Shown here piece after piece: positions 10,629-55,683 of a DNA stretch of 64,000 nt. The translations under genes were made by a program, and so were the position numbers. The stretch's first letter is position 1. Every line of letters begins with the position of its first letter. The notes beneath the pieces are model-generated. The model was not told where the DNA came from. It saw nothing but the letters and a program-made list of their open reading frames with translations, and did not search any database. This stretch comes from Terriglobales bacterium. GTDB taxonomy: Bacteria > Acidobacteriota > Terriglobia > Terriglobales > Acidobacteriaceae. Where the stretch lies: contig JAICSO010000001.1 of assembly GCA_025936825.1 (NCBI GenBank), positions 930,001 through 994,000 of the forward strand. Reading direction: 5' to 3'.

Positions 10629-10816
10629 GATTGAAGCAGCGGATTGAACCATTGAATCATCGGAGGATTGAATCATTGAACAGCAGTGAGCGATGAGCAA
10701 CGAGCCGTGAGCTAATATTTCAATCCGCCCAAGATCGCTCATTGCTCACTGCTCACGGCCCAAAGCGTCTGCAGTGATTCAATCCCTCAATGATTCGATG
10801 ACTCAATGACTCAATT
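10629..10816. repeat. GATTCAAT-family palindromic repeat, long form
   Basis: Outer arms are runs of ATTGAATCATTGAA-type words on the left and TGATTCAATCCCTCAATGA-type words on the right. An inner pair is formed by GAGCGATGAGCAACGAGC and GCTCATTGCTCACTGCTC. The same family occurs at 30541-30630 (short form, invaded by a transposon) and 55203-55394 (long form). It fills the gap between the membrane-protein pair and the metallothionein gene. Confidence 0.8.
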
Positions 10817-30170: not shown

Positions 30171-30539
30171 ATGGACAAGAAGAAGGTAGAAGCATTCAAA
30201 AAGCGCTTAGAGACGCGGCAGCAGGAGCTGCGGAAGATGGTCTCGCGCACGCAGCAGGATGGCCGCTCAGCCGATGAAGACGTCGCGCAGGACATCGCTG
30301 ATAAGGCTGCAAGCTCCTACAACAAGGAATTCTTGTTTCACCAGAGCAATGCCGACCGCCAGCTCCTGCAGATGGTAGAAAATGCACTCGCGCGCATCCG
30401 CGAAGGCTCCTTTGGTGAGTGCATTTCCTGCGGCAAAGACATCAATCCGAAACGGTTGGAAGCCGTCCCCTGGACTCGCCACTGCATCGAGTGTCAGGAA
30501 AAGCTAGAAAACGGGATGCTGGAAGAAGCCTCGCGGTAA
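30171..30539 (+). CDS. DksA/TraR-type C4 zinc-finger protein
   Basis: 122 residues. A coiled-coil N-terminal half (EAFKKRLETRQQELRKM) with acidic tip region DEDVAQDIADKA is followed by a C4 zinc finger GECISCGKDINPKRLEAVPWTRHCIEC (key CxxC-x17-CxxC). DksA-family proteins insert into the RNA polymerase secondary channel and alter promoter kinetics with ppGpp. The tip lacks the exact DxxDxA of E. coli DksA but has a similar DEDVAQDIADKA. Stand-alone. The repeat and transposon follow. Confidence 0.9.
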   Translation: MDKKKVEAFKKRLETRQQELRKMVSRTQQDGRSADEDVAQDIADKAASSYNKEFLFHQSNADRQLLQMVENALARIREGSFGECISCGKDINPKRLEAVPWTRHCIECQEKLENGMLEEASR

Positions 30540-30540
30540 T

Positions 30541-30630
30541 TGAGTCATTGAATCAGCGGATCATTGAATCATTGAAAAGCCCAGGGTTGTTGGTTCGGCA
30601 ATGATTCAATCCTTCAATGACTCAATGATT
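30541..30630. repeat. GATTCAAT-family repeat, short form, interrupted by the transposon
   Basis: TGAGTCATTGAATC, ATTGAATCATTGAA arm on the left and ATGATTCAATCCTTCAATGA on the right; after the transposon the sequence resumes as CAATGATTCAATG at 34007-34019. Removing 30631-34014 rejoins a continuous repeat. Related long forms are at 10629 and 55203. Confidence 0.8.
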
Positions 30631-30658
30631 GGTAGTGGGTCAGTTTGAATTTTCACAG
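30631..30658 (+). repeat. Left terminal inverted repeat of the transposon
   Basis: Starts GGTAGTGGGTCAGTTT, then a diverged middle and CACAG; it is preceded by CAATGATT. It is the mirror of 33979-34006 at 23 of 28 bases. Confidence 0.85.
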
Positions 30659-30696
30659 ACTCGCTTTAGCATCCTTTGGCATGGCATGATGTGAGC

Positions 30697-30954
30697 ATGA
30701 CAGTCGGCAAAGGGAAACGTCCGCGAGACCCCAACCAGCTTGCTAAATGGATAGTTGAACAATCCACCAGTGAAAAGCAAGAGGAAACCCCTTCCGAGAT
30801 TCCGTCAACACCTGCCGACATATCGGCCTACATGGCGAGCATTGGCCGCAAGGGTGGTCAGATTGGCGGGAAGCGCCGATTGAAAACCATGACCAAGGAA
30901 CAACGCCGCAAGGTCGCAGCTAAGGCCGCTAAAGCACGCTGGAAAAACCGCTAA
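30697..30954 (+). CDS. Small basic passenger protein of transposon
   Basis: 85 residues. The N-terminal half is mixed and acidic (KQEETPSEIP). The C-terminal half is basic, with GGQIGGKRRLKTMT-type residues and the end KVAAKAAKARWKNR, which resembles an amphipathic nucleic-acid-binding tail. Similar Lys/Arg/Ala-tailed small proteins are common and unassigned. It is the first gene inside the left TIR, read in the same direction as the membrane protein and transposase. Start at ATG 30697; no clear Shine-Dalgarno, but translation fits the tail pattern. Confidence 0.6.
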   Translation: MTVGKGKRPRDPNQLAKWIVEQSTSEKQEETPSEIPSTPADISAYMASIGRKGGQIGGKRRLKTMTKEQRRKVAAKAAKARWKNR

Positions 30955-31064
30955 ACAACTTTTTATTTTGCGGCAGGCATAGTAAAATTCCGCGCAGAAT
31001 TGCCAGAGTACGGACTAACTCCTTCCCCCCGCAAAGCCGTATTCAGCACAAACGAGAGGTGACG

Positions 31065-31682
31065 ATGAGCGGTAATGATGCTGCCGTGTCCAAGCCTGTG
31101 GGGCAAGTTGGGGTAGTTAAATTCCCAGTAAAACTCTCTGTGGTATTGACGATCCTTGTGGCGATTGCAGGAGCCATTTTTTGGTACTGCCCTAGGCTCC
31201 ATGATGAACTGACATTCTTCGGGACAGCCTTTGCCATGGCTGCTGGGGTATTAGCGGCCTACTACATTGGAAAAACGCTACAAATCACCGTCATTCAGCG
31301 CGAAGAGGGACTGAAGGCCGTTCGCATCGAAAAAGCATTCAGTTATATACATCGATGGAACGCTGCCCCTTTCCAAGATCGGCAACAATGGAGAGCCTTG
31401 TTGGATAAGATGCACGGAATGACGCCAGCTCAAATTGCCAATCTCCTCCAAAACGAGCGCGCAGATAGGGCAGTGATTGTGGATGTTCTCAATTTCTTTG
31501 AAGAAGTGGCCTTAGCAGTGAACGAAGGACTAGCCGATGAGCAGACTCTTTTGAAATTCTTCCGCGACATGCTGGAAGGATATTTCCACCAATCGGCAGA
31601 ATGGATAAACCGACTGAGGACGGATGGGAACCGTCCTCGGCCCAAGGTCTATCTTCAGTTTGAAACTATGATTAAAAGGTAG
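31065..31682 (+). CDS. DUF4760-type membrane protein (transposon passenger)
   Basis: 205 residues with two N-terminal membrane helices (about 21-42 and 50-68) and a cytoplasmic domain containing FFEEVALAVNEGLADEQTLLKFF, the hallmark stretch of DUF4760-like proteins. No catalytic motif is seen. GAGAGGTGA lies just before ATG 31065, which decides the start. Its position between TIR and transposase marks it as cargo. DUF4760 has no established function to my knowledge. Confidence 0.75.
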   Translation: MSGNDAAVSKPVGQVGVVKFPVKLSVVLTILVAIAGAIFWYCPRLHDELTFFGTAFAMAAGVLAAYYIGKTLQITVIQREEGLKAVRIEKAFSYIHRWNAAPFQDRQQWRALLDKMHGMTPAQIANLLQNERADRAVIVDVLNFFEEVALAVNEGLADEQTLLKFFRDMLEGYFHQSAEWINRLRTDGNRPRPKVYLQFETMIKR

Positions 31683-31935
31683 AGAAATTAGAGGGTAGGA
31701 TCCATTCCTTCAGAGCAGTTCATTTCGTCTCCTTCGGGGGATGCACAGAACCATACATCCGCCTCGCGCACGCTGTCAATCGGTTTTGTTCCCAGGCGAT
31801 TCATAAGTAATTAGATGCCTCACCGGCACCTATTGTTTCAAATCCCAACACTTGCGCTGCAAGTCAGATGCCGTTCTTGAGCGTGAAGTTGCGCCTTTAG
31901 ATTCAGCAAATCCAGACTCCCTATTCGTTCCAGTA

Positions 31936-31980
31936 TGACACAAAATGTCACTTGACATGCTAAAGCGGCTATAGTATAAG
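31936..31980 (+). promoter_or_regulatory. Transposase promoter with operator palindromes; possible leaderless transcript
   Basis: TTGACA (31952-31957), 17 bases, TATAAG (31975-31980). The transposase ATG at 31988 starts about where transcription would, so the mRNA may be leaderless. TGACACAAAATGTCA (31936-31950) is a perfect 5-bp inverted repeat overlapping the upstream edge, and TGTCACTTGACA overlaps the -35 box. The 31683-31935 stretch has no other feature. Confidence 0.6.
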
Positions 31981-31987
31981 AGTCAGT

Positions 31988-32881
31988 ATGAATTGCCTAC
32001 CCATACAAACCCGGGCCAAGGTGATTAGTTGCTTGATTGAAGGCTGCTCCATCCGCGCCACAGTTCGTATGACCGGAGTTGCAAAGAACACAATCGTTAA
32101 ACTGCTAGCCGATCTCGGCTGTGCTTGCGCTGCTTACCACAATCGCCATGTTCGTAATCTGAAGGTGCGCCGCCTGCAGGCCGACGAAATCTGGTGCTTC
32201 GTAGGTTCCAAGGCCAAGAACACGCGCCTTGAAAAGAAGCAACAGGGATGGGGTGATATTTGGACTTGGGTTGGAATTGATGCAGACACGAAACTTGTGG
32301 TCTCGTACCTCGTCGGCGGACGCGACGGGGGCTGGGCAAAAGAATTCATGGAGGACTGTGCCAGCCGGATTACCAATCGGGTCCAAATCACAACAGACGG
32401 GCATCGCGTTTATCTTGATGCAGTCGAGAATGCTTTCGGGGCGGACATAGATTACGCACAACTACAGAAAATCTATGGCGCGGTCTCTGAAACCGAAACC
32501 CGATACTCCCCAGCAAAATGCATTGGTTGCGATTTGAAGGTAGTCAGCGGCAACCCCGACCCCAAGCATGTGAGTACATCGTTTGTGGAGCGGCAGAACT
32601 TAACGATGCGGATGCACATGCGGAGATTCACCCGCTTAACGAATGGGTTTTCCAAGAAGGTGGACAACCATCGGCACTCTGTTGCTTTGCATTACATGTT
32701 CTACAACTACTGCCGTCAGCACCAAACGCTTAAGGTCTCGCCAGCGATGGAGGCAGGTCTTACAGATCACATGTGGAGCATAGAAGAATTGTGCGAGCTT
32801 CTGCCGAAGCCGATGGTGAAAGGTTCCAAGATAGAAAATGAGCTACTGCGAAAGGCGCTGGAGGAAAATGCCAGAGCTTAG
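31988..32881 (+). CDS. IS1-family-like DDE transposase
   Basis: 297 residues. An N-terminal HTH resembles IS1 InsA (CSIRATVRMTGVAKNTIVKLL). It is followed by DEIWCFVGSK (first Asp), ITTDGHRVYLDAV (second Asp) and SFVERQNLTMRMHMRRFTR (catalytic Glu), the DDE order of IS1 and IS1595-like enzymes. IS1 itself makes its transposase by frameshifting from two frames; this one is a single frame. TIRs and the 8-bp duplication fit its activity. The enzyme looks intact. Confidence 0.88.
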   Translation: MNCLPIQTRAKVISCLIEGCSIRATVRMTGVAKNTIVKLLADLGCACAAYHNRHVRNLKVRRLQADEIWCFVGSKAKNTRLEKKQQGWGDIWTWVGIDADTKLVVSYLVGGRDGGWAKEFMEDCASRITNRVQITTDGHRVYLDAVENAFGADIDYAQLQKIYGAVSETETRYSPAKCIGCDLKVVSGNPDPKHVSTSFVERQNLTMRMHMRRFTRLTNGFSKKVDNHRHSVALHYMFYNYCRQHQTLKVSPAMEAGLTDHMWSIEELCELLPKPMVKGSKIENELLRKALEENARA

Positions 32882-32965
32882 CTTGCTACTTTCTCGCGCA
32901 AACTCCGCGCACGTTCCGCAGCGGTCATAGACCGCAAGCGCGAAAGCAACCGTCGAAGTGCGCGC

Positions 32966-33905
32966 TCACGCTGACGCTCGCCTTGCTCCATTACCTGTCC
33001 CTGGCGTCTCGACGGGAACTGGCAATTTTCTCCGGCTGCTCTTCGTGGCTGGTTTCTTGCCGATAGCAGGTTTTGCGAATCCCATGAACGGTATGTCATT
33101 GTTCATCAGTCCTGTCAAAGAGTTTATCAACATTTTCTCGTGCGTGATCGGCATACGTTGAACCGGAAGGCCAATGGCCTCCGCCTCTTGGTAGTCAATC
33201 ACGAAATCGTGAGCTGGATAGTCCCAAACAAGGTGCTCTGCCAATTCTTCCGCATTTGGATGCTTGGTGGATTCCAGGAGTCGCCTAGCATATTCCTCGC
33301 CCTCAGATAGCGCCCTGCGATAAGACCCGACTTTGCTTGGATCGATATGCGAGTAGAGAGGATTCATTATTCCAACCACTCCGGCAATCGATTCATGAAG
33401 AGCCTGTTTCACACTCATTCCGCGCTCTGCCAAGGCGTGCCCGAAGTAGTCAAGGATGCCAGTGGCGTACTCCTTCATGAACTCCATAGACTTGAATTCA
33501 TCCAGTGGAGAGAAGTAGTTGAACCCTTTGTCCAATTCGTCGCGCAGTTGAGCGTCCAACGGGCCAAGCTCCGCGAATTTCGCCCATATAGATGTTGTCA
33601 GCATTCAAGCAAAAGAGGGTAGCTGCGCTCTTCGCCATCATTGGAACCAAAATGTTCAGTTCCCGGCAATGGCCGCGAAAAAACTTAGCCAAGCGATACG
33701 CGACGTGCGCGTGACCTCCAGGCGACTGAACCAGTATTTCGAGTGTGTCGATCTTGCCGAACTGGTCACGCCGCCGTAGCGCTCCCCAGAAGTCTGGGGA
33801 ACAGAGGTGATATGGGCCAGGATGTACAATCGCATAGATACGCGATTTTCTTTGCTTCTCTAGCGATAGCAGCGTTTGGTTGAACTGAGAAACCGGGTCT
33901 GACAT
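32966..33905 (-). pseudogene. SDH-type serine proteinase (ClpP/crotonase fold), 1-base insertion
   Basis: Two adjoining frames give one protein of about 313 residues. The first (33905 to about 33578) has LVQSPGGHAHVAYRLAKFF and MMAKSAATLFCLNADNIYMGE: the SPGG oxyanion-side and SAATL nucleophile-Ser motifs of serine dehydrogenase proteinases (SDH_sah). The second continues with FAELGPLDAQL, as expected in that family, if one A is removed from the AAA at 33576-33578 (minus-strand GAAATTC). The rest is a helical C-terminus. It lies inside the transposon, opposite to the transposase. If the indel is a sequencing error, the gene is intact. Confidence 0.8.
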
Positions 33906-33978
33906 TTGGCCGTCATTGTACCCCAATCTCCGCACAATTCAACCTGATACACCTTTCCGTTCTAAAAAGCTAATTTCC

Positions 33979-34006
33979 CTGTGGAAGCCGAAACTGACCC
34001 ACTACC
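33979..34006 (-). repeat. Right terminal inverted repeat of the transposon
   Basis: Reverse complement begins GGTAGTGGGTCAGTTT and ends CCACAG; followed by CAATGATT at 34007-34014. Confidence 0.85.
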
Positions 34007-34096
34007 CAATGATTCAATGTTTTGACCTTCCCAAATCCACACTGGTAAACTGAAGCTTCCGATCATTCCACCCAGAACCAGGCAGAAGGGAAGTTC

Positions 34097-34822
34097 GTGC
34101 GCGCAGAAACCCGTCGTCAACTCAAACAAGACAAATTCAGCAAGGCAACCCTACAGGTAGCAGAGCAGACCGTCCACTGGTCGGCCGAGCACAAGGGCAA
34201 GCTTATCGCCGGGGCAGTCGTGGTGGTAGTCATAGTCGCCGCTATATTGGGGGGCTTTTACTACTTGACTATGCAGGACCAGAAGGCCAGCGTTGAATTC
34301 AGCAAAGCGGTGCAGACCCTGAGCGAGCCCATCCGCCCGGCAGGCATGCCACCGCAACCGGAATACCCGTCGTTTGCATCGGCGAACGAGCGCGCCACCG
34401 AAGCACACAAGCAATTTCAGGCAATTGCAGACAAGTACCCGCATACACATGCTGGCGATTTTGCGCACTATTTCCTGGGTGTGACGTCATCGCAGTTGGG
34501 CGACAATGTTGCCGCCGAGCGCGAGCTGAAGTCGGTGGCTGATTATCACAATGCCGACATCTCGGCACTGGCTAAAATGGCACTCGCTTCGGTGTATCGC
34601 AACACCAACCGCAACAAGGATGCAGAAGACCTTTATAACCAGCTGATCCAGAAGCCGACAAGCACCGTCAGCAAGACTTCGGCGCAGATGCAGCTGGCAG
34701 AAACCTACGTCGCTGACGGCAAGGCCAGTGACGCGAAGAAGATTTACGAACAGATTCAGAAAGACGCTCCCCAAAGCGAAGCCGCCCAGCTGGCTTCGAA
34801 CCGGCTACAAGAGCTCAAATAA
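34097..34822 (+). CDS. YfgM-like TPR membrane-anchored protein
   Basis: 241 residues. A basic cytoplasmic start, one membrane helix (about 35-57) and a periplasmic TPR-like domain (about 90-240, FQAIADKYPHTHAGDFAHYFLG..., ALAKMALASVYRNTNRNKDAEDLYNQLI). The layout matches the YfgM/TPR_21 ancillary SecYEG or periplasmic chaperone-network proteins. GTG start with AGAAGGGAAG upstream. Confidence 0.82.
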   Translation: MRAETRRQLKQDKFSKATLQVAEQTVHWSAEHKGKLIAGAVVVVVIVAAILGGFYYLTMQDQKASVEFSKAVQTLSEPIRPAGMPPQPEYPSFASANERATEAHKQFQAIADKYPHTHAGDFAHYFLGVTSSQLGDNVAAERELKSVADYHNADISALAKMALASVYRNTNRNKDAEDLYNQLIQKPTSTVSKTSAQMQLAETYVADGKASDAKKIYEQIQKDAPQSEAAQLASNRLQELK

Positions 34823-55202: not shown

Positions 55203-55394
55203 AAGGTTGAACCATCGGATCATTGAATGATTACGAGCGGCGCGCAACGAGTGATGAGCAGCGAGCGATGAGCCAATAGAACCGCGGTTTCCGTGATTTG
55301 CTCATTGCTCACCGCTCACAGCTCATTGCTTGTTTTTCAATGATTCAATGATCCGATGATTCAATGATTCAATCTGTGTTAATGATTCAATTCT
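55203..55394. repeat. GATTCAAT-family repeat, long form
   Basis: Left arm GGTTGAACCATCGGATCATTGAATG; right arm TTCAATGATTCAATGATCCGATG and more. Inner arms GAGTGATGAGCAGCGAGCGATGAGC / GCTCATTGCTCACCGCTCACAG (shown as word pairs). Its right edge supplies the stop of the downstream minus-strand gene. Confidence 0.8.
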
Positions 55395-55683
55395 TCTCAT
55401 CTCCGCTCAGTGCTCGCAGCGCCTTTCTGATTTCGCGATTGATGCGCGCGGCATCTTGCGACGATTGGTCGATCAGTTGAATCCAGCGGCGGCTGTCGAT
55501 ATCGAGTTTGGCGTGGCCGAGCAGATAACAGGCTTGCAGAATCGCTTCCAGCGCATTGCTCAGATCATGCGCGAGCGAGCGCAGTTGCATGATGTTTTCG
55601 TTGGGGGCACTCGGCTGTGCGTTGTTGTTCGCACTCTTGCTGCCAGGCTTGGATTTGGTGGTCTTGCGTGGAGACGATCGCAT
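55387..55683 (-). CDS. Stand-alone histidine-kinase dimerisation (DHp/HisKA-like) protein
   Basis: 98 residues. A basic N-terminal 28 residues precede LRSLAHDLSNALEAILQACYLLG, which matches the HisKA H-box (H-D-L-x-N) and helix, followed by a second helix (about 60-95). No ATPase domain is present. It might be phosphorylated in trans or act as an inhibitor, but as a relic it could also be inert. Its stop codon is provided by the repeat at its 3' end. Confidence 0.65.
   Translation of the reverse strand: MRSSPRKTTKSKPGSKSANNNAQPSAPNENIMQLRSLAHDLSNALEAILQACYLLGHAKLDIDSRRWIQLIDQSSQDAARINREIRKALRALSGDEKN

Follow-up and report, generated by a model that had tools for sequence, protein, structure and literature searches.

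A family of compact IS1-type transposons with a conserved backbone and two variable cargo slots in Acidobacteriota

Introduction

Insertion sequences (ISs) carrying passenger genes are a known kind of mobile element, and the closest concepts are the transporter ISs (tISs), the Tn3-family transposons with toxin-antitoxin (TA) pairs and the Tn7-like transposons with defense cargo. Classic IS1 elements encode their transposase in two overlapping open reading frames (ORFs), insA and insB, with a programmed frameshift, and single-ORF members of the IS1 family are also known. The ISfinder consensus for IS1 ends is GGnnnTG, accompanied by a duplication of 8 to 9 bp, and members of the ISMhu11 type reach several kilobases, so that novelty cannot be claimed from size. 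Among soil bacteria, Acidobacteriota are common but little studied in genetic terms. Here, we analyze an IS1-type element at positions 30631-34006 of a 64,000-nucleotide stretch of the genome of a Terriglobales bacterium (assembly GCA_025936825.1, contig JAICSO010000001.1, positions 930,001 to 994,000), hereafter the window, together with its relatives.

A tIS is defined as an IS carrying passenger genes (PMC9330008); Tn3-family transposons are described as having repeatedly acquired TA modules that are exchanged inside the transposon (PMC7157771), and Tn7-like transposons as spreading defense and TA cargo across hosts (PMC8649781). PD-lambda-2 is described as a tested TA-like antiphage system acting through abortive defense, in which a third component is needed against lambda-vir (PMC9519451). 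We consider it likely that the window element belongs to a compact IS1-type transposon family in which a fixed backbone is combined with two exchangeable slots, with TA, defense and protease genes favored as cargo.

Results

The window element, its ends and its empty relatives

The window element comprises an intact transposase ORF, a small basic gene that we denote KGG, and cargo in two slots, V1 and V2, all enclosed by terminal inverted repeats (TIRs):

30623..30630, no strand: target-site duplication, left copy, CAATGATT; exact match to 34007-34014, inside a local repeat cluster
30631..30658, plus strand: left TIR, GGTAGTGGGTCAGTTT...; 23/28 against the right end
30697..30954, plus strand: backbone gene encoding KGG, a small basic protein of 85 aa with the motif GG..GG..R ... 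RW; profile matched in 55/67 elements
31065..31682, plus strand: slot V1 cargo, predicted membrane protein with a DUF4760 domain, 205 aa; PF15956 E 2.9e-16, over cut-off
31988..32881, plus strand: IS1-type DDE transposase encoded by one ORF (297 aa); above the cut-off of PF03400 and under that of NF033558; D66, D137 and E201 invariant
32966..33604, minus strand: cargo in slot V2, the protease gene of the next line, C-terminal half, in another frame; phrog_21683 96-264, E 2.9e-19
33498..33905, minus strand: cargo in slot V2, a serine protease gene of the SDH type (ClpP fold), N-terminal half; PF01972 match under the cut-off (E 1.2e-6); phrog_21683 29-96
33979..34006, minus strand: right TIR; 23/28 against the left end
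34007..34014, no strand: target-site duplication, right copy, CAATGATT; exact match to 30623-30630

The element is present as a single copy in the 6.54-Mb draft genome. Because it lies in an intergenic target made up of clustered TCAATGATTCAATG-type repeats, with an additional copy of CAATGATT at 30599, the exact 8-bp duplication by itself carries less weight than it normally would, and the case for the element rests on the TIRs together with its empty relatives. In seven loci of relatives (L108, L109, L110, L113, L118, L119 and L120), the two genes that flank the element in the window, a DksA/TraR-like gene (30171-30539) and a TPR-type gene (34097-34822; both names from a reading of the translations), are adjacent, without such an element between them. 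An eighth locus, L116, is consistent with the same empty arrangement but aligns in pieces only. The repeat cluster is absent from the five intergenic stretches of relatives that were inspected, and the empty-site comparison is thus not at the level of alleles. A 16-base pattern of the ends, with at most two mismatches, occurs at seven places in the same genome (two of them being the ends of this element), compared with three for a reversed control pattern.

An earlier note on this DNA had proposed an IS1-like transposon with passenger genes; the 23/28 ends, the exact duplication, the intact catalytic triad and the seven empty loci support this. Its expectation of empty sites is borne out for loci, not for alleles.

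A family of 67 elements

Searching for inverted ends and an exact 8-bp duplication around places with a related transposase delimited 67 elements, including that of the window, in Acidobacteriota and on three alphaproteobacterial plasmids. Without prior selection, ends were found at 41 of 68 places in the first batch (40 distinct elements), at 28 of 41 in the second (24 new) and at three of five plasmid loci. Places without ends were excluded from the 67; L084, a repeat of L053, was dropped, and four elements of the second batch repeat earlier ones. Two weak cases are counted, namely L090_9276, in which one end begins with GC and the transposase is a fragment, and L083, with ends matching at 14/20. 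The end consensus is GGTAGTGGGTCAGTTTGAAT, and each of its first seven bases, GGTAGTG, is conserved at 91-100% over both ends of the 67 elements. As a control for chance, mispaired flanks (left of one locus, right of another) gave ends plus duplication in 1 of 186 cases; true flanks, under a stricter requirement for a GGT start, gave 60 of 64, as expected, given that those 64 elements had been chosen for having ends.

The elements range from 1043 to 5058 bp, with a median of 3174 bp, and 64 of the 67 exceed 1.3 kb; the statement of the earlier note that most IS1-like elements carry only a transposase does not hold for this family. A related transposase was found in 55 of 297 genomes of the phylum (E <=0.001, fragments and remnants included) and, at E <=1e-20, in 73 of 200 genomes of the family; additional matches came from 25 loci (genome_contigs), 20 plasmid records (coverage of at least 80% in 8 of them) and a single phage record. 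One plasmid copy of the transposase (L099, 1455-2633) lies near a gene annotated as a Shedu immune nuclease. Judged from titles and the openings of abstracts, none of the papers listed from an open-access collection gives an account of this element family.

The backbone: a divergent transposase and the KGG gene

The window transposase matches the Pfam family DDE_Tnp_IS1 (PF03400; E 5.3e-8, 33.7 bits vs a cut-off of 24.1), whereas its score against the NCBIfam IS1 equivalog NF033558, 59.3 bits, is below the cut-off of 100. Going by these sequence matches, it is a divergent relative outside core IS1. The catalytic residues are invariant among the aligned elements of the family, the window's included (D66 in 64/64, D137 in 66/66 and E201 in 67/67). 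Because the transposase is a single ORF, lacking the insA/insB layout, the element is filed as IS1-type rather than as classic IS1.

A profile built from an alignment (A1) of the small KGG protein matches 55 of the 67 elements, 48 on the transposase strand and seven on the opposite strand, and 43 of the 48 plus-strand ORFs start less than 400 nt from the left end. In the 297 phylum genomes, with at most 18 candidates scored per genome, 69 KGG matches were listed, of which 37 were strong (at least 54.9 bits) and near full length; for 31 of these 37, a related transposase is no more than 5 kb away, as compared by eye. The 32 weaker matches mostly cover the C-terminal part, and a few of them are near a transposase too. 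Among the six strong matches without a nearby transposase, one (G238:C9) is close to the edge of its contig, where a TIR-like end is present. Another (G055:C242; L122, 4935-5476) belongs to a 542-bp element with ends, a AAGAATAA duplication, the KGG gene and only a transposase remnant, a deletion derivative and a candidate non-autonomous form that kept KGG. The profile matches in 55/67 elements and the proximity of the strong matches to transposases lead us to reject KGG as ordinary cargo.

The protein itself matched no Pfam family at E 1, no PDB entry at E 1, and NCBIfam at E 0.11 at best. Its C-terminal 34 residues are weakly similar to phrog_2384 (E 2.8e-4), the AlphaFold2 (AF2) model consists of helices only (predicted template-modeling score 0.32), and the gene bears the annotation 'histone H1' in one plasmid record. 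In L153, L164, L166 and L179, the profile matches within a longer minus-strand ORF. In L125 (1794-5512), a KGG gene without a related transposase lies between quite different inverted ends (18/20, GGCAATAAATACG...) flanked by an 8-bp TTTAGATA duplication, an arrangement suggesting that KGG may travel with another kind of transposon as well.

Two slots that change independently

Slot V1 separates the KGG gene from the transposase gene, and slot V2 separates the latter from the right end. We compared by BLASTN the window element and nine close elements picked for a proteasome-like gene after the transposase (L032, L033, L034, L035, L036, L040, L041, L057 and L058). Three blocks recur among the ten, namely the left end with KGG (positions 1 to ~320), the transposase with ~40-50 nt upstream of it and, in many pairs, ~29 nt of the right end. 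Most pairs align over little else, some sharing short V2 pieces of 48-171 nt. L032 and L033 share V1 and differ in V2; conversely, L036, L040 and L041 share V2 and differ in V1. In these ten elements, the two slots change independently. In the nine with a proteasome-like V2 protein, the transposases average 77% pairwise identity, the KGG proteins 70% and the V2 proteins 26%. Across all 67 elements, transposase identity reaches at least 70% in 166 pairs, of which 22 share any cargo homologue (blastp, E 1e-6).

Instead of being swapped as cassettes, the V2 proteasome-like proteins might have stayed in place and diverged very fast, as in an arms race, a lesser but real possibility. The slot and orientation of these proteins are constant in the nine close elements and L142, short stretches of V2 DNA align in some pairs, and two presumed catalytic residues, Thr2 and Asp18, are invariant in all nine, each of which fits divergence in situ. 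Against it, L032 and L033 are 92% identical in the transposase and 93% in KGG and only 30% in the V2 protein, while their V1 DNA aligns, and the window element, with a transposase 84-86% identical to those of L032 and L033, holds an unrelated protease fold in V2. Exchange of cargo in each slot remains the reading that we prefer.

Cargo of the window element

The protein in V1 of the window scores 60.3 bits against DUF4760 (Pfam gathering cut-off 25), and a membrane segment is suggested by inspection of its sequence. DUF4760 was found in 79 of the 297 phylum genomes; among the places listed, only that of the window adjoins a related transposase, as judged by eye. In V2, two overlapping ORFs in different frames match consecutive parts of phrog_21683 (29-96 and 96-264 of 337). 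The N-terminal half contains the motifs SPGG and KSAAT, the latter presumably holding the nucleophilic Ser, and the C-terminal half, in the other frame, contains GPLDAQ (a GP[IL]D motif). The halves score low because the gene is split: the N-terminal half reaches 28.2 bits against PF01972 (cut-off 31.3) and the C-terminal half has no match, compared with 74.2 bits for the homologue in L042, and the two obtain 32.5 and 18.2 bits against NCBIfam Clp_like_SDH (cut-off 250). Thus, the protease gene is split by a change of frame, being either a broken gene or an assembly error, and the V2 cargo of the window copy is probably inactive, to judge from its reading frames.

Programmed frameshifting, or an error in the assembly, could instead mean that the two frames make up one gene and that the module is active. 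We consider this doubtful: the frames do overlap and jointly cover consecutive parts of one family, but no obvious slippery heptamer was apparent by eye, and the homologues in L042, L098, L163, L183 and L184 are encoded in a single frame.

DUF4760 and SDH as a recurring defense pair were not found again, either in the collected loci or in the 297 genomes. Searching the loci then collected with tblastn, using both cargo genes, returned the window only, a negative result that is partly due to divergence, because SDH proteases came to light in L042, L098 and L163 when local profiles were used. PF01972 and PF15956 had no other match in the 297 genomes within the bounds of a delimited element or next to a related transposase (compared by eye); the nearest genomic SDH match is ~6.7 kb from a related transposase, beyond the element ends, and the closest relatives of the C-terminal half in the phylum sample are in G202 and G214, genomes without a listed transposase match. 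PADLOC gave no match for KGG, the transposase or either SDH half, and a weak one (E 0.031, to a SIR2 model) for the DUF4760 protein.

These results do not support the three-gene cargo of the earlier note. Because KGG is a constant part of the element, the true cargo consists of two genes, one of them split. The DUF4760 assignment holds, with PF15956 over its cut-off, and both halves of the SDH-type protease match one family, phrog_21683, although the gene is not intact. The same TIR does recur, in numerous other elements, and so does an SDH protease, in L042, L098 and L163, but not the exact DUF4760-SDH pair. The proposed resemblance to a defense module is not shown for the DUF4760-SDH pair, which lacks a meaningful PADLOC match, but sister elements carry PD-lambda-2_B homologues.

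Cargo of the sister elements

We compiled 91 cargo proteins from those of the first 40 elements that have a cargo ORF of at least 60 aa and from the undelimited loci L032, L034, L037, L058 and L059. The 24 later elements and the three plasmid elements are outside this set, which also omits the KGG gene of L053 and both proteins of L068; cargo was called mechanically, and the tallies cover 25 of 44 PADLOC and 25 of 36 Pfam families. The most frequent Pfam families were HTH_3 (17), Peptidase_M78 (6), DUF3467 (3), HigB-like (2) and P63C (2), followed by single instances of PIN, NYN, nSTAND1, Trypsin_2, DUF4258 and DnaA_C. Among PADLOC models, PD-lambda-2_B was matched by seven of the 91 proteins and RmrA models by up to eight, with overlap. 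Of ten proteins scanned singly, seven matched PD-lambda-2_B, with E from 7e-17 to 2e-50; the homologues are encoded by elements L043, L044, L047, L072 and L095 and by the undelimited loci L059 and L099 (a plasmid). The order in L059 is a HigB-like gene (by reading), PD-lambda-2_B and a third gene. RmrA-type regulators were matched in L038 (E 7.8e-137) and L088 (E 2.4e-58).

Two protease folds recur as well. Among the nine proteasome-like V2 proteins, PF00227 is over its cut-off in L033 alone and weak in the other five scanned. The structural model of the L041 protein (mean predicted local distance difference test score, pLDDT, 75.7) has as its top PDB match Anbu (5nyg; Foldseek E 5.1e-10, template-modeling score 0.65 by query), and a local profile added Anbu-like proteins in L142 (V2) and L181 (at the left end), for a total of eleven loci, ten of them with the gene in V2. 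SDH proteases are present in four elements, in V1 of L042, L098 and L163 and in V2 of the window; the proteins of L042, from Acidobacteriota, and L098, from an Acidiphilium plasmid, share 50% identity across 306 residues. Because PHROGs families match both kinds (phrog_11747 for the L042 SDH protein, E 2.6e-93; an HslV-type family for the L041 protein, E 2.4e-5), relatives of the SDH and proteasome-like proteins occur in phage genomes.

P63C-domain proteins are encoded in L039 and L060, the latter with a KGG-like stretch discerned by eye. L061, L068, L077 and L080 contain a clustered DUF3467-like gene, with adjacent Xre-type genes in several, and L068, L077 and L080 share a gene read as HigB/Gp49-like (the L080 protein has no Pfam match). 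The clusters of DUF3467, HigB-like and Xre genes could represent a three-part TA arrangement.

That an IS1-type element occasionally picks up neutral host genes, so that the cargo is incidental and without shared function, would fit the great diversity of the cargo, with many genes outside any family, the commonness of DUF4760 outside elements (79/297 genomes) and the split protease of the window, but is unlikely given that HTH_3 accounts for 17/91 proteins, PD-lambda-2_B and RmrA appear repeatedly, SDH proteases recur in four elements and Anbu-like proteins in eleven loci, and 64/67 elements exceed 1.3 kb.

Surroundings of the element

Palindrome-like TCAATGATTCAATG clusters occupy intergenic positions of the window at 10630-10815, 30539-30628, 34007-34019, 55207-55228 and 55334-55396, and the element sits within one of them. 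A promoter-like stretch, TTGAC...TAAACT (34019-34055), located just downstream of the element, recurs by eye in the loci of relatives. With the element inserted directly upstream of this stretch, expression of the TPR-type gene may be affected.

Discussion

In the scheme that we favor, the DDE transposase would recognize the GGTAGTG... ends and insert the whole unit, leaving the 8-bp duplication, and the KGG protein would probably bind DNA and either help or restrain transposition. The comparison of close elements shows that each slot changes its passenger genes independently of the other, most simply, perhaps, via recombination between elements at the conserved blocks. Selection might then favor TA, phage-defense and protease modules that keep the element and protect the host; the identity of the cargo in sister elements suggests that it is carried for defense or addiction, and a defensive role is plausible.

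Several observations weigh against this scheme. The mechanism is predicted from the anatomy of the elements. KGG is neither strictly required nor constant in place: its profile is not recognized in 12 of the 67 elements, five plus-strand matches start more than 400 nt from the left end, four of the seven minus-strand matches are inside ORFs longer than 1 kb, and no such ends were found near four of the 37 strong genomic matches (G055:C218, G285:C46, G049:C3 and G245:C23). Over all elements, the correlation between KGG identity and transposase identity is weak (r 0.15; local alignments of n=1164 pairs). The search for ends came up empty around 27 of the 68 transposase places in the first batch and around 13 of the 41 in the second. 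The close elements in which slot turnover was seen were selected by their cargo, and L037, L038, L039 and L042, with transposases 70-74% identical, lack a proteasome-like protein and carry other cargo. The frequency of HTH_3, 17/91 cargo proteins vs 15 matches in the whole genome of the window, is a comparison of counts against a one-genome baseline without a formal test, and many singly scanned cargo proteins belong to no Pfam family. To the PADLOC result for the window's own genes can be added that the small A- and C-like partners scanned from L043, L059, L072, L047, L095 and L097 matched no PADLOC model.

A more far-reaching and quite tentative version is a widespread plug-in transposon with two slots, in which a chassis of transposase and histone-like partner would rapidly swap TA, defense and protease cassettes, the proteases would be undescribed mobile effectors of defense or addiction, and KGG would let small elements carry toxic cargo. 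Whether or not this holds, the conserved blocks point to uncharacterized TA and defense genes, as anything between them is a candidate; the recurring proteasome-fold and ClpP-fold proteases make a role in defense or element maintenance testable; and in KGG an IS1-type transposase would have an accessory factor of a new kind.

Comparison with known systems places these elements among several described ones. Anbu, the ancestral proteasome-like peptidase (PDB 5nyg), and the L041 V2 protein have a common predicted fold, but at 16% identity the latter is very divergent and resides on a mobile element, and the window holds an SDH protease instead. PD-lambda-2 is represented by B homologues in sister elements and by none in the window element. 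Single-ORF, ISMhu11-type members of the IS1 family are alike in the PF03400 transposase, the single ORF without frameshift and the 8-bp duplication, which is in the range given for IS1, and the GGTAGTG ends fit GGnnnTG; the elements described here differ in the frequent extra KGG gene and the two cargo slots. Tn7-like transposons likewise carry defense and TA genes as cargo and spread them across hosts, but the present elements have a single IS1-type DDE transposase, no Tn7-type target-selection set, and lengths of 1.0-5.1 kb. With Tn3-family transposons, they share the exchange of TA modules within the transposon and differ in the transposase, in the smaller units and in cargo such as proteases and DUF4760 that is not of the TA kind; a further difference is that the Pfam cargo tally (25/36 families) contained no resolvase family. 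The tIS has one transposase, two ends and unrelated passenger genes inside, a definition that includes the window element; in comparison with that description, the family presented here stands out in that cargo is the rule, occupies two slots with high turnover, and is usually accompanied by a non-transposase partner gene.

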